From: a virus
Strand: one strand, 5' to 3'
Length of the DNA: 20,409 bases
Virus record (IMG/VR): IMGVR_UViG_3300006920_005296
Location: 1-20,409 of that record
This document shows, one piece after another, positions 2,337-17,559 of this stretch. How positions within the stretch are numbered: the first letter of the stretch is position 1; every line of letters starts with the position of its first letter. Below the pieces are notes generated by a model. The model saw only the letters and a program-made list of their open reading frames with translations, did no database searches and was not told the origin of the DNA. The translations under genes and the position numbers were made by a program.

Positions 2337-3206
2337 TTATCCTTCTCTTATTATTTCTCTCAAATACTCACCATAACCTGATTTATTTAATAATAAGGAT
2401 AAATCATGTAACTGTTGTGAACCAATATAACCCATTCTCCATGCAACTTCTTCAATTGAACCAATCTTAACGTTTGAGTTGCTTTGAGTTGCTTTGATAA
2501 AATTATTAGCTTCATTCAATGAATCAAATGTGCCAGTATCTAACCATGAAGAACCTCTAGGTAAAATCCTAGCTAGTAATTGATTCCTTTCTAAATAAAT
2601 CTTATTTATATCAGTGATTTCTAATTCACCTCTATCACTTGGTTCTAAATTTTTAGCAATCTCAACCACGCTATTATTATAAAAATAAAGACCTGGTATT
2701 GCGTAAGGTGATTTTGGATTTTTAGGTTTTTCTTCAAGTGATAAAACCTCACCACTTACATTAAATTGAACTACCCCAAATCTTCTTGGGTCTTTAACTT
2801 TATAAGCAAATATAACACCACCTTTAATATCACTCTTTGAGTCTTGTAGAATTTGTGACAATCCACTGCCGTGAAATATATTATCACCTAAAATTAAAGC
2901 AACATCATCATTACCAATGAATTCTTCACCAATAATAAATGCTTCAGCTAAACCATTAGGTTCTTCTTGATGAGCATACTCAAATTTACATCCCAATTGT
3001 GAACCATCACCCAATAAATTTTGGAATGCTCCTTGTTCATATATTGTTGTTATAATTAAGATTTCCCTAATACCAGCCAACATCAAAGTTGATAGTGGAT
3101 AATAAATCATTGGTTTATCATATATTGGCATTAGTTGTTTACTAACGCTAATTGTAAGTGGGTGCAACCTTGTTCCAGCACCACCAGCTAATATAATTCC
3201 TTTCAT
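2337..3206 (-). CDS. rmlA: Glucose-1-phosphate thymidylyltransferase RmlA
   Basis: This 289-residue protein is full length for RmlA. It makes dTDP-glucose from dTTP and glucose-1-phosphate, the first step of dTDP-sugar synthesis. The nucleotide-binding signature GGAGTRLHPLT (8-18) and LGDNIFHG (106-113, metal and sugar-phosphate region) are intact. EEKP and GSSWLDTGT further along are typical of the family. The start ATG overlaps the stop of the preceding 76-residue gene in an ATGA junction (3203-3206), implying translational coupling. It is followed immediately by rmlC. All catalytic landmarks are present, so it is probably active. It may draw on the dTTP pool, which is also needed for phage DNA. 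Confidence 0.95.
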   Translation of the reverse strand: MKGIILAGGAGTRLHPLTISVSKQLMPIYDKPMIYYPLSTLMLAGIREILIITTIYEQGAFQNLLGDGSQLGCKFEYAHQEEPNGLAEAFIIGEEFIGNDDVALILGDNIFHGSGLSQILQDSKSDIKGGVIFAYKVKDPRRFGVVQFNVSGEVLSLEEKPKNPKSPYAIPGLYFYNNSVVEIAKNLEPSDRGELEITDINKIYLERNQLLARILPRGSSWLDTGTFDSLNEANNFIKATQSNSNVKIGSIEEVAWRMGYIGSQQLHDLSLLLNKSGYGEYLREIIREG

Positions 3207-3433
3207 TTTTCTTTACCTTTTAAAAAATCATTTCTACTATTCCAAACCTTATCATAATGTTCTTTATATTTTCGTTTATCTTCTTCTGATTCAAAAATCA
3301 TTGGAGTTGTTTGCATTATATAATTAGGGTCTTTTATTGCGTTTATTAAATCGTTATTAATCTCTTCACGAATAGCTTCCAATAATAGTTTTGTAGCCAT
3401 AGCTTCAGCGTAATCTTTTTCTTTTTTATTCAT
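3203..3433 (-). CDS. Small charged protein of unknown function
   Basis: This 76-residue, lysine- and glutamate-rich, mostly helical protein starts at MNKKEKDY. The start is fixed by an ATGA overlap (3430-3433) with the stop of the upstream zinc-ribbon gene. The stop in turn overlaps the rmlA start by 4 bases. The longer reading frame would use a TTG and is less likely. No motif is recognised. Its position ties it to the rmlA-rmlC operon. Confidence 0.75.
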   Translation of the reverse strand: MNKKEKDYAEAMATKLLLEAIREEINNDLINAIKDPNYIMQTTPMIFESEEDKRKYKEHYDKVWNSRNDFLKGKEK

Positions 3434-3804
3434 TCTATTATACAATTTCTACATTCCCAACTGGAGCCTATAGTGTTACAAGCTTGGTCATAAAAATAAG
3501 CTCTATCAACTTTTTCCATACCATATTTTTGTTCTAATGTAATTTGTATACCATCATCCCATTGATTATTATTTTGCTTCATCAAAGTATCTTGTTCTCG
3601 AAGAATTAGGTCTAATTCTGGACAACTACCTTCTTCAGCTAAAGCCCTAAAAGTTTTGACTAATTTAGCACCATCGAAATTGCCAACTAATGGGTCACCC
3701 TCTTTTCCAAATGGGTTTAAATCATCCACATGAGTTTCACAAATATGACATTTCCTATCTATAGGTGGTGGGTTTAAATAAATTTTTTTAGTTTCTGTTT
3801 CCAT
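3430..3804 (-). CDS. Putative zinc-ribbon protein of unknown function
   Basis: This 124-residue protein has a CHIC pair near the N-terminus (about residues 19-22) and a CRNC pair at the C-terminus (about 118-121). Together they could form one zinc site joining the two ends. The middle is acidic and not recognised. It belongs to the operon running from 4885 to 1787. It is translationally coupled to the next gene by an ATGA overlap and begins about 20 bases after the HNH-like gene ends. No function can be assigned. Confidence 0.7.
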   Translation of the reverse strand: METETKKIYLNPPPIDRKCHICETHVDDLNPFGKEGDPLVGNFDGAKLVKTFRALAEEGSCPELDLILREQDTLMKQNNNQWDDGIQITLEQKYGMEKVDRAYFYDQACNTIGSSWECRNCIIE

Positions 3805-3824
3805 ATTTATTTTAATTTAAATTA

Positions 3825-4148
3825 TTATCTTCCCTCATATTGCCACATTACTGCATTACAGTAACTATGTACCGCACCTTCAGTCATACCAGTTCCATGG
3901 TCATGTTGAAGATGAATTGGATGGTTAAGGAATCCACTAGGGAATAAATCCCAATCAATTCTCTTTTCCGTTATATATTCTGGAGCATCTTGGTCTAATC
4001 GTTCATTACAATAGAAACACATGTTTTGCTGTTCTTTAACGTACTGTACTCTAACAGCTCTACGTTCTTGCCATTCCAATTTATCGTAATCAACTGGTAA
4101 ATCGTATTCATCTTCTATTGGGTCCCACCAATTTTTATTCTTATTCAT
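3825..4148 (-). CDS. HNH/endonuclease VII-like protein
   Basis: This 107-residue protein has CFYC (about residues 44-47), then HLQHDHGTG (about 79-87) and GAVHSYCN (about 91-98). The order C-x2-C, HDHxTG, H/C-x2-C-N matches the zinc-binding beta-beta-alpha metal fold of recombination endonuclease VII and related HNH proteins of phages. One usual zinc Cys is replaced by His (HSYC). It could resolve branched DNA during replication or packaging, or act as a small homing-type nuclease. Its place inside an operon of short unknown genes argues for a housekeeping phage role. The N-terminal 40 residues are acidic and unassigned. The gene starts 1 base after the stop of its upstream neighbour. Confidence 0.65.
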   Translation of the reverse strand: MNKNKNWWDPIEDEYDLPVDYDKLEWQERRAVRVQYVKEQQNMCFYCNERLDQDAPEYITEKRIDWDLFPSGFLNHPIHLQHDHGTGMTEGAVHSYCNAVMWQYEGR

Positions 4149-4149
4149 A

Positions 4150-4455
4150 TTAATATTGTATTTTTATTTGAATCCAATCTGGTGATTTATCGAATGTTTC
4201 AAAATTATTAGTAATTATTACCCATTCTTGGTTATTACCCCAACTAATCATTACGCCCCCACCTTCAGAATTACTATCAACTTTCCATCCAATTCCAAAA
4301 TCATCGTTATATTCTTTTACAATATCTTCAATATCTTTTATATCATAGTATTTTATATACCATAAAGCATCTCCATCACCACCCGCACTTAATACTTCTT
4401 CATATAAAAATGTAAGTAATTTGTAAATGTGATTTTTATTAGGTGTTATTATCAT
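4150..4455 (-). CDS. Hypothetical protein, 101 residues
   Basis: The protein is acidic and aromatic-rich (several Trp, Tyr and Ile) with no recognised motif. Its start overlaps the end of the upstream 148-residue gene by 17 bases, and its stop lies 1 base from the next start, so it is the second gene of the operon. The glycine-rich stretch SEGGGVMISWGNN (about 63-75) looks like a turn between beta strands, suggesting a small alpha/beta fold. Confidence 0.65.
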   Translation of the reverse strand: MIITPNKNHIYKLLTFLYEEVLSAGGDGDALWYIKYYDIKDIEDIVKEYNDDFGIGWKVDSNSEGGGVMISWGNNQEWVIITNNFETFDKSPDWIQIKIQY

Positions 4456-4885
4456 TATGTATTTTTTTTAATAACGTTAAGACATTTTTGATTGTCATTT
4501 CGTTATAAGTCTTTTGACCTAACCAGATACAATATTTAATCAAATCCAGCCTATCTATTTCATTATCTTTTTTTCCCTTATACTTTCCACCTATTATATG
4601 GAATTCGTCCTTAAAACGTCTAAAAATGTCACACCTACGGTTTTTATTAACCTTCTTAGTCTGACAAATGTCTTTAAGTACAAAATTCTCCATATAACCA
4701 TACTTAACCATGTATCTATCACCGAATTTTAAATTCATACATAAAATAACCATGGCATTATCGATATGTGCATAACCAGAGACTTCATCACCAAAATCAT
4801 CACTTAAATTAGTTAAAACAATTTTTCGTGTACCATCGGGATTATTAATGAATTTCTTGAAAGTTCCAAACAATGTTTTTGTCAT
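4439..4885 (-). CDS. Hypothetical protein, first gene of the rml operon
   Basis: This 148-residue basic protein has no secure family. The segment HIIGGKYKGKKDNEI followed about 13 residues later by IWLGQ resembles the short C-terminal module (GKYKGK then a Trp-Leu) found beside exonuclease X-type proteins, but no exonuclease core is present. The start ATG lies 5 bases after the -7 box of a perfect host-type promoter, so the mRNA is predicted to be leaderless. Genes from here down to rmlC are packed with overlaps or gaps of 20 bases or less. Confidence 0.7.
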   Translation of the reverse strand: MTKTLFGTFKKFINNPDGTRKIVLTNLSDDFGDEVSGYAHIDNAMVILCMNLKFGDRYMVKYGYMENFVLKDICQTKKVNKNRRCDIFRRFKDEFHIIGGKYKGKKDNEIDRLDLIKYCIWLGQKTYNEMTIKNVLTLLKKIHNDNNT

Positions 4886-7669: not shown

Positions 7670-8959
7670 TTATTGAAATTCAATCAAATATGCGATTGTG
7701 CATTGTTTTCCATCATAAATAATAAATTCATCATTTCTAAGGTCTGCACCCCCATGAGCATAAACACTATCATAACCTTCTTTATCCATAACCGATTTTG
7801 ATAAAGAATAACATGAACTATCATGATTAGTGATGTTTTTTTGTTTTCCATGATAAACATCATATAAAGCTAAGAAACCTTTATTTGAATTACCACCAGC
7901 CCAATAAGAACCCCTTACTGAACTATAGCCCAATGATTTTTGAGCTTTATTAGCAAAATATATTCCATCACCAAACATACTTCCAGTGTGTTGTACACCA
8001 GAAGGTCTAATCATTAATCCAGTTTGGATGATATTAAACCAGTTTTGATTTCTAGAGCCATGCCAGAATAATTTTCTATCCTTAAATCTAGCTTTACCAT
8101 AATGTTTATCAAATATAGCTTGAGTTTTCTTATTAACACATTTATAAATGGTTTTAGCTCTATCTTTAGTAGAACCCATTAACTTTTCAATCAACACTAT
8201 TTGTTTAGGGTCAGTTTCAACTGAAACTTCTAATCCCATTTGTTCTAATAATGTAATTTGTTTAGCAGTGTCACTATCTTTATCATCACTATCAACAGCA
8301 TCTTGTTGTTGAGAAATAAGTTTTACCTGACCAGCCATCGTATCTAACGTATCTTGTTCATTAGATAAAAAGTCATTTATTTTTGAAATATCGTTCTTAG
8401 TATCGGCTTTTTCCAATAGATAATCACGAACATCCTTCATTTGTCTTGGAATGATTGTATATAATTCAATTAACAAGTCGTTAATATCCTTAATATCTAC
8501 ACCAACTTTAACTTTTTTAGCGACCTTATTTAAAATATCTTGCGCTGCATCAATTTGAGATTGAGTTACAGACTCTTGTGTAACCTTATAGTTTGTTTGA
8601 ATAGATTTATTTGCAAAAGCCATTAAATCTTCAAATAATGCTTTAACTTTATAATCTTGAATATCTACAATATCACTTGCAGTTGAGCCACTTGAAGTGA
8701 ATACGGTTTCAGTAATCAAGTCAGTTACATCTTTATAACCCTTTCTAGGGTTTGTTTTACTTCTTAAGACTTTTTCCCATTCATAAGAATCTTTATAAAC
8801 TGTAACTAAGTCTTTACCAACTCTACCATATTGGCATTTGATTTTACCATCACTTTGTTCTTCCATGATGTAAACCTTATTACTTTGCGCTGTCAACCCA
8901 TTATCAACTGATACGTGGATTAATTTAGCATATCTTAAACCGTCTTCTTTAGTGACCAT
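7670..8959 (-). CDS. WGR-domain poly(ADP-ribose) polymerase (PARP)
   Basis: Counting from the ATG at 8959, this is 429 residues. Residues about 10-80 form a WGR-like domain (NKVYIMEEQSDGKIKC then YGRVG; the usual Trp is Tyr). A helical region about 100-250 includes LYTIIPR, matching the PARP regulatory domain signature. The catalytic ART domain is about 290-429. LFWHGS carries His300, GDGIYFANKAQKSLGYSS carries Tyr334, and NDEFIIYDGKQ carries Glu411. This completes the H-Y-E triad of polymerising PARPs, so NAD+-dependent ADP-ribosylation is likely. The architecture is that of compact DNA-break-dependent PARPs. A TTG start at 9007 adding 16 residues is possible but weaker. Targets in host or phage are unknown. 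Confidence 0.93.
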   Translation of the reverse strand: MVTKEDGLRYAKLIHVSVDNGLTAQSNKVYIMEEQSDGKIKCQYGRVGKDLVTVYKDSYEWEKVLRSKTNPRKGYKDVTDLITETVFTSSGSTASDIVDIQDYKVKALFEDLMAFANKSIQTNYKVTQESVTQSQIDAAQDILNKVAKKVKVGVDIKDINDLLIELYTIIPRQMKDVRDYLLEKADTKNDISKINDFLSNEQDTLDTMAGQVKLISQQQDAVDSDDKDSDTAKQITLLEQMGLEVSVETDPKQIVLIEKLMGSTKDRAKTIYKCVNKKTQAIFDKHYGKARFKDRKLFWHGSRNQNWFNIIQTGLMIRPSGVQHTGSMFGDGIYFANKAQKSLGYSSVRGSYWAGGNSNKGFLALYDVYHGKQKNITNHDSSCYSLSKSVMDKEGYDSVYAHGGADLRNDEFIIYDGKQCTIAYLIEFQ

Positions 8960-9030
8960 ATTTTTAAATGTTTTAACAAATGTAATAAAAATTTTAGAAA
9001 CCACCAAATGTTTCTTTAGTTTTATTATAT

Positions 9031-11787: not shown

Positions 11788-11991
11788 TTATGCTAATTTT
11801 TTTCCTATTAGGAAATCCCTTAGAAATTCGTTTTTGGGACCACCTATAAACTCAACCCATTCAGAACGTTTAATTGCATTTATTTTACCCCATTCCATAA
11901 GCTCACCTGTACTTGGCTCATGTGATAAATGTGGTGCTACGTAATCTGGGTAAAGTTTTTTATTAAAAACTCTCTCGAGTTTTTTTATCAT
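11788..11991 (-). CDS. Stand-alone copy of a C-terminal domain shared with the 14344 gene
   Basis: This 67-residue protein aligns over nearly its whole length with the C-terminal 60 or so residues of the 240-residue protein at 13622-14344. Both have FxKKLYxD, then W-x2-FIGG-x-KN-x-FLR-x-FL-x-GKKLA at the very end. It is therefore a duplicated or excised domain. No known family is recognised. The ATG is 5 bases after the -7 box, predicting a leaderless mRNA, and it heads the transcript that carries the metallophosphoesterase. Confidence 0.75.
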   Translation of the reverse strand: MIKKLERVFNKKLYPDYVAPHLSHEPSTGELMEWGKINAIKRSEWVEFIGGPKNEFLRDFLIGKKLA

Positions 11992-12762: not shown

Positions 12763-12924
12763 ATGGGGAGGAAAGCATACAAAGAAGAAAATAAGAAAGG
12801 TAAATTATCCATTACCATATCATCAGATAATTATCAAAAATTGGTTGGTGATGGAATTAATAAGTCTAAGTTAATCAATTGGTTATTAGACCAGCATTTT
12901 AACACTATTAATCATGGAAAGTAA
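12763..12924 (+). CDS. Ribbon-helix-helix DNA-binding protein 2
   Basis: This 53-residue protein has a basic N-terminal arm (MGRKAYKEENKK), then strand KLSITISSD, helix NYQKLVGDG and helix NKSKLINWLLDQHF. It shares NKSKLI and the spacing LLxxHF with the protein encoded at 12564, so the two are paralogues. The stop overlaps the start of the HNH endonuclease gene by 11 bases, linking their translation. The GGGGAGG just after the ATG is unusual for this AT-rich DNA. Likely a transcription regulator of this small plus-strand unit. Confidence 0.7.
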   Translation: MGRKAYKEENKKGKLSITISSDNYQKLVGDGINKSKLINWLLDQHFNTINHGK

Positions 12925-13621
12925 AATATGTAGTAAATGTAAAATAGAAAAATCTACCAATGATTTTCATAAAGATAAAACACATAAAGATGGGTATAGA
13001 AGTATTTGTAAATTATGTGTAAAGGAATATCAAAAATCAAGATATGTTAAAGTTATAAAGAATAATTCACCTAAAATTAGTATTAAAGAATATAATAAAG
13101 AATATTATTTAAAACATAAAGATAAAATTAAATCAAGAACTAAAAAATATTATAAAGATAATAAAGAAAAAATAAAATTAACTAAAATTAAATATAGACC
13201 TAAAAAACGCATTCTAGATAAAATTTATAGGGAAAATAATAAAGAACAAAGAAATTTAAAAGAACGTGAGAGAAGGATTAATGACCTATTATATAGATTG
13301 ACTACTAATATTAGAAAATTAATTTTAAAATCATTTAAAGATAAAAAGTATTCCAAACAATCTAAAACTTATGAAATACTTGGTTGTACTTATAAAGAAT
13401 TTAAAAACCATATCGAATCTCAGTGGGAATCATGGATGAATTGGGATAATTATAGTTTATATAATGGTGAAAAAGATTATGGTTGGGAAATGGACCATAT
13501 AATTCCATTATCTTCAGCTAAAACAGAAAAAGATGTTATTAGATTAAATCATTACTCTAATTTTCAACCCTTATGTTGTTTTACTAATCGTTATATCAAA
13601 AAGGATAATCTTATTTATTAA
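12914..13621 (+). CDS. HNH homing-type endonuclease
   Basis: This 235-residue, very lysine-rich protein has an N-terminal four-cysteine zinc finger (CSKC at 6-9, CKLC at 32-35) with the FHKDKTHKDGYRSICK pattern common in phage HNH endonucleases. A basic helical linker (about 40-140) follows. The C-terminal HNH core has GWEMDHIIPLSSA with the catalytic His, an Asn in RLNHYSNFQPL and a final Asn (YIKKDN). Free-standing HNH endonucleases introduce breaks that favour their own spread between phages. It lies on the opposite strand to most neighbours, is more AT-rich than they are, and its stop abuts the stop of the convergent 13622-14344 gene, all consistent with insertion. Confidence 0.88.
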   Translation: MESKICSKCKIEKSTNDFHKDKTHKDGYRSICKLCVKEYQKSRYVKVIKNNSPKISIKEYNKEYYLKHKDKIKSRTKKYYKDNKEKIKLTKIKYRPKKRILDKIYRENNKEQRNLKERERRINDLLYRLTTNIRKLILKSFKDKKYSKQSKTYEILGCTYKEFKNHIESQWESWMNWDNYSLYNGEKDYGWEMDHIIPLSSAKTEKDVIRLNHYSNFQPLCCFTNRYIKKDNLIY

Positions 13622-14344
13622 TTACGCAAGTTTTTTACCCCTCAAAAATTCCCTTAAAAAGGCATTCTTTTCACCACCGATAAAATCAAGCCATTTGGAA
13701 TAAGCTTCATCTTTTTCTTTAAACCAAGTAGCAACTTCTGTTGGTGTTGCATCTTCAGATAATGGTTTATCAAATGTGAAATCTTCATATAACTTCTTAT
13801 CAAAGCACCTCTCGTCAACTAAGAATACTATTGCTGTTAACATTGAGTTTAAATCAGGTTCATTGAATGTTGAAACTCTGACATTATTTTGCTTTAAATC
13901 TGCTAGGTGTTGTTGCATAGAACCAACATACATCTCTTGTTTAAAACCATGTGTTACTAAATGACCTTCATTAGAAGTACCACCATTTAATAATATATTT
14001 GTTTTCCACTGAAGAAGAAAATTCAAATAGTCTTCATCATCACGATAAATAAGACGATATTCATCATTAGCGTGATTAAATTGGATACCTTGTTGTATAG
14101 GAGATAGATTGTATGGCACAAGACCGTACATTCTTAACTCCAAATACTTTTCAGGTTTTTGTGGGGGTGTATTTTCTTTAAAATTTCCAGTACTTAGGAA
14201 CCCCTTAAATTCTGTATAATTAATTTCTTCTAACATAAACCAATCCTCATCTTGAGTTTTATTTGGTCTAATGTTATTAACTAAACACCAGTTATATGGA
14301 GTTTGGTATTTTTCTAAAATGTCGTTACCATCTTCTTGTGTCAT
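13622..14344 (-). CDS. Possible PTH2-fold protein with a duplicated C-terminal domain
   Basis: This 240-residue protein has a middle region that follows the peptidyl-tRNA hydrolase 2 pattern. YNLSPIQQGIQFNHANDEY (about 78-96) resembles the PTH2 signature G-x2-xxQ-xxHA-xxE. It is followed by a Lys-rich strand, then HLADLKQNNVRVSTFNEPDL and a TAI strand. PTH2 itself is shorter and acts on peptidyl-tRNA; phage relatives with the same fold are of unknown role. The last 60 or so residues form a separate domain ending FIGGEKNAFLREFLRGKKLA, shared with the 67-residue protein at 11788-11991. It overlaps the upstream gene by 20 bases. The fold assignment is tentative. Confidence 0.5.
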   Translation of the reverse strand: MTQEDGNDILEKYQTPYNWCLVNNIRPNKTQDEDWFMLEEINYTEFKGFLSTGNFKENTPPQKPEKYLELRMYGLVPYNLSPIQQGIQFNHANDEYRLIYRDDEDYLNFLLQWKTNILLNGGTSNEGHLVTHGFKQEMYVGSMQQHLADLKQNNVRVSTFNEPDLNSMLTAIVFLVDERCFDKKLYEDFTFDKPLSEDATPTEVATWFKEKDEAYSKWLDFIGGEKNAFLREFLRGKKLA

Positions 14345-14709: not shown

Positions 14710-15678
14710 TTAAAGCCCTACTTGTGCGTTAAGTTTACTAAAAAACATTTGTCTTACTCGATTAGATAAATATTTTCCAACATCTTTCATTTCAAGACCA
14801 TTATCAGCTAAAGTATCACTTTCTTCAGAAACAATATCTGATACAACCCATTTGATGATTTCACCAGTCTTTTTCTGGTCCAATATTCCATCAGGGAAAA
14901 CAATACCTAAACCTTGTTCAAGTCTATTCTCAGTTGCAGCATATTCAACAAATTCATTAATAGAATTAAGTTTTTCAGTATCAACTTTAGCAAGTGTTTT
15001 GTTTTTAGTAACACTATGTTTATCACCCTTAACCTTGAATCTATAATCATGACCGTTTACTTGGGCCACCCAAACAACACCTTCACCAATCCCCTCAAAG
15101 CCAAACGCTTTAGCTACTGGACATAACTTCTCAACTTCAGTAGTTATATCAGCTAATTCATTTTGAGCCATCTCAGGTGCGTTAAAATCGATTTCTATAT
15201 CATAACATAAGAAATCTTCTATGTTATATACCCTATTATCTTTATCCCTTAAGTAATCTGATGGTAAATGATATGCTTCGCTACCATCTTCAGGCACTAT
15301 CTTAACATCAAAGATGAATAATGACTTCTCGATTTGAGAAACTCCAACGCCTTTTTGGATTGAGCTACCAGCCCATTCACCGAATATAAACACCCCATCG
15401 TTAGGATTTAAGTTGGTGTTTACATATCTTACATGCTCAACCAATTCAAGAAATGTCTTTTTATTATCTTCAACGTATCTAGCAAAACCAAAATTATCAT
15501 TTTCTGGTGTGATTATGTTGGTTCTGGATTGTGCCCAAAGACCATCTTCTTCAGTATGCCCAATACCAGCATTAGAATTATGAACTAATACGCTGTTAGC
15601 GAAAAAACAATTTGTTTCATCAACAGAAATATCGTAAGACCTTCTATTTTCTATTTTATTAATTGACTTAAGTTTCAT
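14710..15678 (-). CDS. Split intein C-fragment fused to the C-terminal half of an Rnl2-type RNA ligase
   Basis: This is a 322-residue protein. Residues 1-34 are an intein C-fragment: block F is YDISVDETNCFFAN and block G is VLVHN, followed by Ser35 as the first extein residue. The rest begins SNAGIG, completing nucleotidyl-transfer motif I of an RNA ligase whose KLHG is encoded in another gene. Motif III is FGEWAG (99-104), motif IV is GEGVVW (198-203) and motif V is RFKVKGDKH (213-221, Lys215 and Lys217). The Rnl2 family seals nicks in duplex RNA via a ligase-AMP intermediate. Alone this half lacks the catalytic lysine, so it needs trans-splicing with the product of 16542-17360. Its ATG overlaps the stop of the intervening endonuclease gene (ATGA, 15675-15678). 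Confidence 0.92.
   Translation of the reverse strand: MKLKSINKIENRRSYDISVDETNCFFANSVLVHNSNAGIGHTEEDGLWAQSRTNIITPENDNFGFARYVEDNKKTFLELVEHVRYVNTNLNPNDGVFIFGEWAGSSIQKGVGVSQIEKSLFIFDVKIVPEDGSEAYHLPSDYLRDKDNRVYNIEDFLCYDIEIDFNAPEMAQNELADITTEVEKLCPVAKAFGFEGIGEGVVWVAQVNGHDYRFKVKGDKHSVTKNKTLAKVDTEKLNSINEFVEYAATENRLEQGLGIVFPDGILDQKKTGEIIKWVVSDIVSEESDTLADNGLEMKDVGKYLSNRVRQMFFSKLNAQVGL
15577..15678 (-). other. Intein C-fragment coding segment (34 residues)
   Basis: It encodes blocks F and G, ending in His33-Asn34 before Ser35. This is the penultimate His and terminal Asn needed for Asn cyclisation, with Ser as the splicing nucleophile. Confidence 0.9.
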
Positions 15679-16487
15679 TTTTTTTCTATAAATTTAATTA
15701 TTTTTTTCTTAATTTTTTCCCTATTTTCATACCAATCATCTTCCCAAACCATAAACACTCGATAACCCTTTCTTTTTAAAAACCAAGTTCGTTTTCTATC
15801 TTTTTCCCATTTATCTGAACAAAACATTTTAATTGCTGTGTTATAATAATCCCCATCATATTTTCTAGGGTTACAATGGTATAAATCCCCATTGTATTCA
15901 ACAACAATTTTTTTATCAATATTACATTCATCAACTTCAAGTTTATCTATTACATGGTGTTGTTTAAATCCGTAATTTTTTAAAAAATCGTGTAATTCAT
16001 TATGACCTTTAGATGTAAAACCAATTTTAGAATTTTTAAAAATCTTTAAATAATGTTTCAACCTAAATTCTTCATCTGAATTTAATTTATCATGCAATGC
16101 CTTATTCGCTCTTGTTACTTGTTTATATTGTTCTTTTTTAGACATAGATTCCCACCTTTCTGTTGAAAATCTACCTACATTGTCATGGTTCAAAGCTGAT
16201 GCATCACCACCTAATTTAGCGTTTTTAATCCTATTTTTTTTACTTATTTTAGATAAACTTTTTTTACCAATTTCTGAAATAATTTTACCTTCAACAATTT
16301 TAGCGCACTCAACACATAAATCTTTATTATATCGCTCAAACCTTTTTTTTGTTTTATCGAACCTTTCGTCATAAATTAAATTACAACTATCACATTCTAT
16401 TTTATTTATTGGGAATTTAATTTTAGATAAATGTTTAGAGTAGCCCCACCTACCATTAACTAATTCACACCATGTCGTTTTAATCAT
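15675..16487 (-). CDS. Vsr/EDxHD-like homing endonuclease between the split-intein halves
   Basis: This 270-residue protein has an N-terminal cysteine zinc site (CDSC at 32-35, CVEC at 58-61). A basic region about 75-135 holds RIKNAKLGG and RWESMSKKEQ, which look like nuclease-associated DNA-binding modules. The C-terminal PD-(D/E)xK nuclease resembles Vsr. IVVEYNGDLYHCNPRKYDG (194-212) and RTWFLKRKGYRVFMVWEDDW (233-252) match its strand-D/H and 'KGYRVxxVWExDW' patterns. Such free-standing endonucleases are known between the halves of phage genes fractured by split inteins, where they probably promote homing of the break region. It has its own second-class promoter motif and a 12-base palindrome upstream, and ends in an ATGA overlap with the downstream half gene. 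Confidence 0.85.
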   Translation of the reverse strand: MIKTTWCELVNGRWGYSKHLSKIKFPINKIECDSCNLIYDERFDKTKKRFERYNKDLCVECAKIVEGKIISEIGKKSLSKISKKNRIKNAKLGGDASALNHDNVGRFSTERWESMSKKEQYKQVTRANKALHDKLNSDEEFRLKHYLKIFKNSKIGFTSKGHNELHDFLKNYGFKQHHVIDKLEVDECNIDKKIVVEYNGDLYHCNPRKYDGDYYNTAIKMFCSDKWEKDRKRTWFLKRKGYRVFMVWEDDWYENREKIKKKIIKFIEKK

Positions 16488-16500
16488 ACTTATTCTTTAT

Positions 16501-16509
16501 TATAAATAT
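16501..16509 (-). promoter_or_regulatory. Second-class promoter motif of the Vsr-like endonuclease gene
   Basis: The minus strand reads ATATTTATA, then AATAAAGAATAAGT, then ATG. It sits in the 54-base gap between the N-terminal ligase half and the endonuclease gene, so the latter could be expressed on its own schedule. Confidence 0.4.
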
Positions 16510-16514
16510 GAATA

Positions 16515-16526
16515 GTTTCATGAAAC
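16515..16526. repeat. 12-base perfect palindrome GTTTCATGAAAC
   Basis: It lies in the 54-base gap between the two coding regions, just upstream of the second-class motif at 16501. It could be an operator or the endonuclease's recognition element. Confidence 0.5.
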
Positions 16527-16541
16527 CAATGCTTAAATGTG

Positions 16542-17360
16542 TTAAATTTTTATAAATTCATCTTCAGAAGTTAAATCAGACGCTTCAACCCAACCTCTAT
16601 TTTTGGTATAAAATTTATGGTCTTCAGTACATTTAATAATATTACCATCGTCAAATTCTAATTCCAACCAATTTTTATCAGAATCAAAATTTTGAGTATT
16701 AGTAACTATTTTATTTACCATTATATTTTTTTTAGTGTCATAACTTAAAACTGAATCACCAATATTGATTTCACTAATTGAGACTTCTTCCCCGTTACTC
16801 AAAGTAACTAAAGTGTCTTTATCAAAACACCCATGTAATTTTACAGTACCCTTAAATTTAATGGTAGGGGATGCTTTAGAAGGGTCATATATCGGGTCAC
16901 CATTTTCATCTTTCCCAACGTATGAAGCTCTTTGTCTAGCTTCTTTTACTACTTGTCTATATTGCCCTATTTTAGGGAATGCACTATGTTTTTTCATTTT
17001 ATTATATTTTGTTAAATTTTCTAAGTCGTAATGATATTTACATTCATTAGCAACTCTACTTGGTAATATATAACCCTTTTCCCTACCCTTTTTAGCAATC
17101 CCAAAAGATTTACATAACCAATGTTTTAAATATAATCGGATACAAAATTCTGAATAACTATCCGCTGTAATCCAAGTTCCCCTTGAATCTAGGTTATATT
17201 TTTCTATAGCAATCTTCAAATCTTTAGAGTAGTTACCATATTTATCATATGCGAGTCCAGCCGCTATTTCTTGAATAGCTTTATGAGAATATGGTGATAA
17301 CTTATATACCGTATATACATTATCTGAAATTCTATGTCGATATTTTAGTCTACTTCCCAT
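16542..17360 (-). CDS. N-terminal half of an Rnl2-type RNA ligase fused to a split intein N-fragment
   Basis: This is a 272-residue protein. Residues about 123-177 are the start of an RNA ligase: KKHSAFPKIGQYRQV, then TIKFKGTVKLHG, with the AMP-accepting Lys174 of motif I. At residue 178 an intein begins. Block A is CFDKDTLVTLSNG with Cys178 as nucleophile, and block B is KCTEDHKFY with the T-x2-H pair. It stops after 95 intein residues, and the C-fragment lies two genes downstream. The junction KLHG/SN interrupts the ligase active site itself. Residues 1-122 form an extra N-terminal domain that I do not recognise. The ATG overlaps the preceding ATPase fragment by 11 bases. Trans-splicing with 14710-15678 should rebuild a ligase of about 465 residues. 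Confidence 0.92.
   Translation of the reverse strand: MGSRLKYRHRISDNVYTVYKLSPYSHKAIQEIAAGLAYDKYGNYSKDLKIAIEKYNLDSRGTWITADSYSEFCIRLYLKHWLCKSFGIAKKGREKGYILPSRVANECKYHYDLENLTKYNKMKKHSAFPKIGQYRQVVKEARQRASYVGKDENGDPIYDPSKASPTIKFKGTVKLHGCFDKDTLVTLSNGEEVSISEINIGDSVLSYDTKKNIMVNKIVTNTQNFDSDKNWLELEFDDGNIIKCTEDHKFYTKNRGWVEASDLTSEDEFIKI
16545..16829 (-). other. Intein N-fragment coding segment (95 residues)
   Basis: It encodes blocks A and B of a Hint fold and ends FIKI at the stop codon. No endonuclease domain lies within the intein itself. Confidence 0.9.
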
Positions 17361-17559
17361 TTATTAAATTTACGTGGTCCATTGGAAAAAAACCAAGATA
17401 CCTATCTTCACCAGTATTTGGTATTAATTCTATTAGACTCGTATGACCACTGAATTTGCGTGGTGGTTGTTGGGTTGTCCATATCACCACATTATGTTCT
17501 TTAGCGATTTCCCTTAACTTTCCATAAAGTTCCATGGCTTTATTGTAATCCATTTCCAA
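17350..17559 (-). CDS. C-terminal fragment of a RecA/DnaB-like ATPase
   Basis: This 69-residue frame encodes YGKLREIAKEHNVVIWTTQQ followed by PPR. That is the helix, strand and sensor segment following Walker B in RecA/DnaB-type ATPases, where the Gln contacts the gamma-phosphate. A Walker A loop and Walker B aspartate are absent. The upstream DNA is the 3' end of the DNA ligase gene, overlapping by 20 bases, so the N-terminal part of the ATPase is not encoded here. It ends with an 11-base overlap with the RNA ligase half gene. Most likely a remnant of a helicase or recombinase gene displaced by recombination. A functional small protein, or trans-spliced partner elsewhere, cannot be excluded. 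Confidence 0.5.
   Translation of the reverse strand: MEMDYNKAMELYGKLREIAKEHNVVIWTTQQPPRKFSGHTSLIELIPNTGEDRYLGFFPMDHVNLINGK

Follow-up and report, generated by a model that had tools for sequence, protein, structure and literature searches.

In the virus record IMGVR_UViG_3300006920_005296 of IMG/VR, whose complete 20,409 bases are the window studied here, we confirm that a phage RNA ligase of the Rnl2 (RNA ligase 2) type is encoded as two genes by a split intein. The locus is best explained, at a probability that we put near 0.9, as a mobile "fractured gene" element lodged in motif I of the ligase gene, which would operate by trans-splicing and homing. Evidence for this reading comes from the anatomy of the locus, from the empty site in relatives, from selection on both the ligase and the nuclease of the gap, and from discordance between the host gene and the element.

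Three successive open reading frames (ORFs) on the minus strand make up the locus: 17360..16542 (272 amino acids [aa]), 16487..15675 (270 aa), and 15678..14710 (322 aa). The first of these, the N-half, carries the N-extein of the ligase (16830..16997; 56 aa, MKKHSAF...GTVKLHG) and then an intein N-fragment (16545..16829; 95 aa), so that it reads ..FKGTVKLHG, then CFDKDTLVTLSNGEE..CTEDHKFYTKNRGW..DEFIKI at its end. A gene for a Vsr-like/DUF559 (MTES_1575) homing-type endonuclease (15675..16487; 270 aa) fills the gap, beginning 54 nucleotides (nt) past the stop codon of the intein N-fragment and overlapping with its own stop codon the start of the C-half by 4 nt (ATGA). The C-half opens with MKLKSINKIENRRSYDISVDETNCFFANSVLVHN, then SNAGIG, and consists of an intein C-fragment (15577..15678; 34 aa, with block F YDISVDETNCFFAN and block G SVLVHN) and the ligase C-extein (14713..15576; 288 aa, stop codon 14710-14712), which bears the +1 serine, the remaining catalytic motifs, and the C-terminal domain.

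Both intein fragments are confirmed as genuine by curated profile cut-offs passed at the exact splice residues. A sequence-only reading of this DNA had placed an intein N-fragment, with a block A cysteine and a block B TxxH, directly behind KLHG, and an intein C-fragment, with blocks F and G and a terminal His-Asn, ahead of SNAGIG; searches of the two halves against intein profiles matched both. The N-half scores 34.1 bits against intein_Nterm TIGR01445 (NCBIfam cut-off, 24.5) from residue 178, the cysteine directly after KLHG, and its block B reads TEDH; the C-half scores 21.2 bits against intein_Cterm TIGR01443 (NCBIfam cut-off, 15.6) up to residue 35, the serine after His-Asn. The N-fragment also passes the Pfam Hint family PF01079 (44 bits > 29.7), and its nearest solved intein is NrdJ-1 (8ubs, E 7.5e-7). 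The split inteins gp41-1 and NrdJ-1 share the split position of the ligase intein and have fragments of similar size, but their exteins differ from the ligase and sequence identity is low. An intron in the gap was also considered, but an Rfam search of the window and of L197, a contig with a related locus, gave no intron match.

The empty site is preserved in close relatives. Two contigs, L001 and L050, encode the same ligase as a single uninterrupted ORF in which KLHG is adjacent to TNAGIG, with 90-91% identity to the window across the N-extein and 81-82% across the C-extein (91% and 82% for L001), and about 20 more homologues likewise show no interruption at this join. Because both extein edges lie directly side by side in these homologues, a chance layout is excluded. 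The intein-less homologues with an unbroken motif that the earlier reading proposed to look for thus exist, and L001 and L050 read KLHG/TN (a slash marks the break point here and below). The C-half falls into the phage RNA ligase family phrog_548 of PHROGs (5e-55), passes Pfam PF09414 (29.3 bits > 27), and matches T4 Rnl2 in the PDB. Searching for PF09414 in the record of the window itself gave zero matches although the C-half passes by hmmscan, and that zero is uninformative.

The break lies inside motif I, whose lysine is thereby separated from the remainder of the active site, as follows from three results. In a profile alignment of the intact relatives (E 3.9e-14), their KLHGTN falls on motif I of T4 Rnl2, so the earlier claim that the two extein edges rebuild Rnl2 motif I is borne out; the lysine of motif I, encoded at 16839-16841 and lying four residues ahead of the splice point, is invariant among the intact relatives as K53 of alignment A6; and, of all solved structures, T4 Rnl2 is the best match (E 1.6e-12) to an AlphaFold2 model of the intact L001 ligase (predicted local distance difference test score [pLDDT] 91.5). 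The T4 enzyme (2HVQ/2HVR/1S68), best solved match by both profile and fold and aligned through motif I K-x-H-G-[TS]-N, is uninterrupted, unlike the window ligase.

The gap gene had been called a Vsr-like nuclease, and both profile and fold agree. The protein passes DUF559 (32 bits > 20.6), and its family profile matches I-Bth0305I (3R3P, E 4e-6) and the Neisseria endonuclease-like 3HRL, and Vsr weakly, while an AlphaFold2 model (pLDDT 80.7; catalytic domain >90) matches I-Bth0305I at 4e-5 and Vsr at 3e-4. Its catalytic domain thus resembles those of I-Bth0305I and Vsr (1CW0, 1VSR), from which it differs in being a separate gene between intein halves with a zinc-ribbon-like N-terminal part (CxxC..CxxC) of its own. 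Invariant across the 34-member nuclease alignment are D186, E197, G200-D201, H204, N206-P207, W227, and W248, and 16 of the 34 family members carry NUMOD3, a motif of homing endonucleases. Gap nucleases of the fractured genes reported by Dassa et al. in 2009 are said to be Vsr-like. Related nucleases occupy the gaps of split PolB genes (Klebsiella phage KP13-7 and metagenomic phages) and of a split dUTPase, and others adjoin intein fragments within a helicase and a terminase host gene, both of them named by eye.

The element recurs at the same KLHG/SN site in at least six further lineages (L065-L072, L153-L155, L156-L158, L196, L197, and L073), which we recovered with alignments of the nuclease and of the intein as queries. 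Single-sequence nuclease searches of viral contigs gave no match, and an alignment of distant relatives did find some, uncovering the other fractured ligases; no fractured Rnl2 was found in genome contigs. Lineage B (L065-L072) is one group of eight contigs with identities to the window of 86% in the N-extein, 68% in the intein N-fragment, 84% in the nuclease, 65% in the intein C-fragment, and 71% in the C-extein. Lineage D (L156-L158) has the split intein without the nuclease, across a gap of ~120 bp; lineage G (L197) retains a 99-aa C-terminal remnant of the nuclease; and L073 has a far diverged ligase (25% identity) with a closer intein (51/44%). The +1 residue is serine in 7/7 invaded lineages against 3/21 uninvaded ones (Fisher p 1e-4, rows not independent).

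Other split genes came to light alongside these. A different PF09414 RNA ligase is split at KYDGEN/C..HN/CSIYND with a related nuclease in the gap (L200 2475-4594; also L202), and an ATP-dependent DNA ligase is split directly after its motif I (KLDG/C..HN/CRAIV), likewise with a related nuclease in the gap (L206 2385-4840 and L207 2397-4837). Genes for dUTPase-like proteins are intein-split at NSPGT[IV]D/C in L139, L140, and L143 (about 2674-4500) and in L123 (6246-8190), the first three with a related nuclease in the gap. A terminase-like gene in L051 (5488-8861) holds two inteins; in the second, a nuclease-like region is fused to the N-fragment while another, overlapping ORF encodes the C-fragment, a layout of intermediate type. 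In L197 (3203-6755), TGA is seemingly read as tryptophan in several ORFs, and the ligase is broken again near motif IV (GVKGI / GEGIVF) by ~800 bp with an antisense ORF; this stretch contains no Rfam intron and no recognisable intein edge.

Presence of the element is discordant with the ligase phylogeny, as expected for a mobile element. The ligase tree places the window beside the intein-less L001 and then L050 (96/92 and 97/93), apart from the split ligase of L067 in lineage B; a clade of the window with L067 is rejected (p 0.001), as is a single clade of the seven split-ligase lineages (approximately unbiased [AU] test, p 5e-6). The five ligase-associated nucleases fall into one 100/100 group together with one free-standing relative, L074, and are allowed to form one clade (p 0.20), and the seven inteins constitute one side of a branch at 75/98, which is not starred. 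In L073 the intein is far less diverged than its ligase, as would be expected if the element had moved between ligase alleles. We did not rely on the row L118_RNR of the intein tree, which was cut in the wrong frame.

Several results weigh against a mobile element in an Rnl2 gene. The equivalog cut-off of TIGR02307 (197 bits) is missed by the C-half (35.5) and by the intact L001 ligase alike (35.2); the expected Rnl2 match held in the profile alignment to T4 Rnl2 and, for the C-half, in PF09414, and failed at the equivalog level, and we accordingly name the enzyme "Rnl2-type" and not a T4-like equivalog member. Support in the intein tree is weak because the fragments are short. Gain of the element is indistinguishable from its loss on these trees, and L001 and L050 could have lost it. 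Finally, the synonymous divergence (dS) of the nuclease between the window and L067 is 0.63, only slightly below that of neighbouring genes (0.9-1.1), so there was no recent transfer between those two; the "down_hydrolase" row of this comparison was left out for its wrong coordinates.

Established intein and homing biology leads us to infer trans-splicing, cleavage of empty alleles, and ligase activity. On this model the split intein between KLHG and SN is a natural one of class 1 (95 + 34 aa; Cys1, His-Asn, +1 Ser), and the three genes would be translated separately. The intein fragments would then bind, fold, splice in trans, and excise themselves, joining KLHG to SNAG and so rebuilding motif I in a ligase of 344 aa (465 aa from the upstream start discussed below). 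The nuclease, for its part, would cut uninvaded ligase alleles at motif I, and repair would copy the element in (homing). On the likeliest reading, the ligase would have no activity at all unless trans-splicing occurs.

The same genes might instead be a gene in pieces, whose non-splicing halves assemble non-covalently into a working ligase. A passage of PMC3653736 offers NrdA of Aeromonas phage Aeh1 as a precedent for such a state, and the second break in the L197 ligase, bare of a recognisable intein edge, fits it. All seven lineages, however, have kept intact intein edge motifs and the +1 serine, and unspliced fragments would lie within the nucleotide-binding motif; we consider this explanation improbable. 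Slightly less probable still is a decaying locus, in which the ligase was inactivated by the element and its halves are mere leftovers. Lineages D (L157) and G (L197), where the nuclease part has been lost or has decayed, show what such a process would look like, but the ratio of nonsynonymous to synonymous divergence (dN/dS, omega) between the window and L001 ligases is about 0.09, and the genes contain no frameshift or stop. Pairwise dN among the window, L001, and L050 ligases is 0.101, 0.117, and 0.140, which on a three-taxon tree gives branches of 0.039 for the window and 0.062 and 0.078 for the intein-less L001 and L050; because the window branch is the shortest, the split gene evolves no faster than the intact ones. 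This says that the split ligase is still under selection and is not decaying. The element itself is likewise constrained relative to L067, with an omega of 0.17 for the nuclease and 0.30 for the intein N-fragment. The window is a single metagenomic contig, and an assembly artefact could have joined unrelated fragments; because the arrangement recurs in 8 further lineage B contigs and, across different samples, in five other lineages, this has a negligible chance of being correct. A mobile element that would splice and home accounts best for the locus.

The N-half ORF had been read as ligase plus intein, which stands from Met 16997 onward; its first 121 codons (16998..17360, minus strand) are an unrelated, window-specific, in-frame N-terminal extension without detectable relatives. 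Ligase homology starts at Met 16997, nothing corresponding to codons 17360..16998 occurs in L001, L050, or L067, and the split ligase of L067 itself starts at MKKHSAF. A 69-aa ORF (17350..17559, minus strand) marks the upstream edge of the extension; in L050 its homologue, recognised by tblastx/blastn and from the L050 ORFs, overlaps the start of the ligase or leads directly into it, and the window has an extra segment of ~360 bp, open and in frame, between the two. GC content by codon position in the extension is coding-like. A tblastn search against phages found no match at E<=1, the best PHROGs match was at E 0.031, and a Pfam search gave no result. The extension is possibly another insertion fused to the ligase, and the N-half may have two candidate translation starts, 17360 or 16997.

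Elsewhere in the window, six transfer RNA genes lie at 54-864 and a protein with a PARP catalytic domain is encoded at 7670-9007 (PF00644, 2.7e-24). The ORFs 11788-11991 and 13622-14344 have similar C-terminal ends (..GG.KN.FLR[DE]FL.GKKLA), and the region that they flank contains an HNH-like endonuclease gene (12914-13621, plus strand).

Passages of two published accounts (PMC7090010, PMC3653736) describe as "fractured genes" (Dassa et al. 2009) conserved phage enzyme genes interrupted by a split intein whose two halves enclose a free-standing endonuclease gene, and the ocean metagenome cases given in one of those passages (PMC3653736) comprise 7 nrdA and 2 nrdJ genes. The window locus is of this kind, as had been proposed, with its split halves, intein blocks A, B, F, and G, free-standing gap nuclease, and contiguous homologues. 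It differs in its host gene, which encodes an RNA ligase of the Rnl2 type and is interrupted shortly past the catalytic lysine, and in that the ligase site also has nuclease-less and nuclease-remnant derivatives. Full-text literature searches, outside which the gene list of Dassa 2009 lay, returned no report of RNA ligase 2 as an intein host. Isolated phages provide further likenesses. UvsW of Salmonella phage S16 (L062 3314-6040) is encoded by two genes with a split intein in the same layout, but its host gene differs and its gap protein is a different endonuclease-like type; that locus is annotated merely as helicase, hypothetical, helicase. PolB of Klebsiella phage KP13-7 has the same split layout and a related nuclease in the gap, but another host gene and an intein that starts with serine, not cysteine. 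The split-intein PolB of Pseudomonas phage MIJ3 likewise has an endonuclease gene between its halves (PMC6892783), there for an HNH nuclease in contrast to the Vsr-like nuclease and RNA ligase of the window. We file the locus as a known kind of element in a new host gene with an unusually complete comparative series.

With these data, the list of genes that host fractured elements gains an RNA-repair enzyme. A long-lived element lineage may have specialised on motif I of polynucleotide ligases (the Rnl2-type ligase in seven lineages; L200; L206 and L207), its nuclease-free state in L157 indicating that the split can outlast homing, perhaps because trans-splicing delays ligase activity; we advance this tentatively and think it rather doubtful. 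At a single site, the series includes alleles without the element, alleles with all of it, one with a remnant of the nuclease, and one that is split but lacks the nuclease, so that how split genes invade, decay, and persist can be tested in one system. It also supplies several natural split inteins, new and with a +1 serine, as candidate tools for protein engineering.
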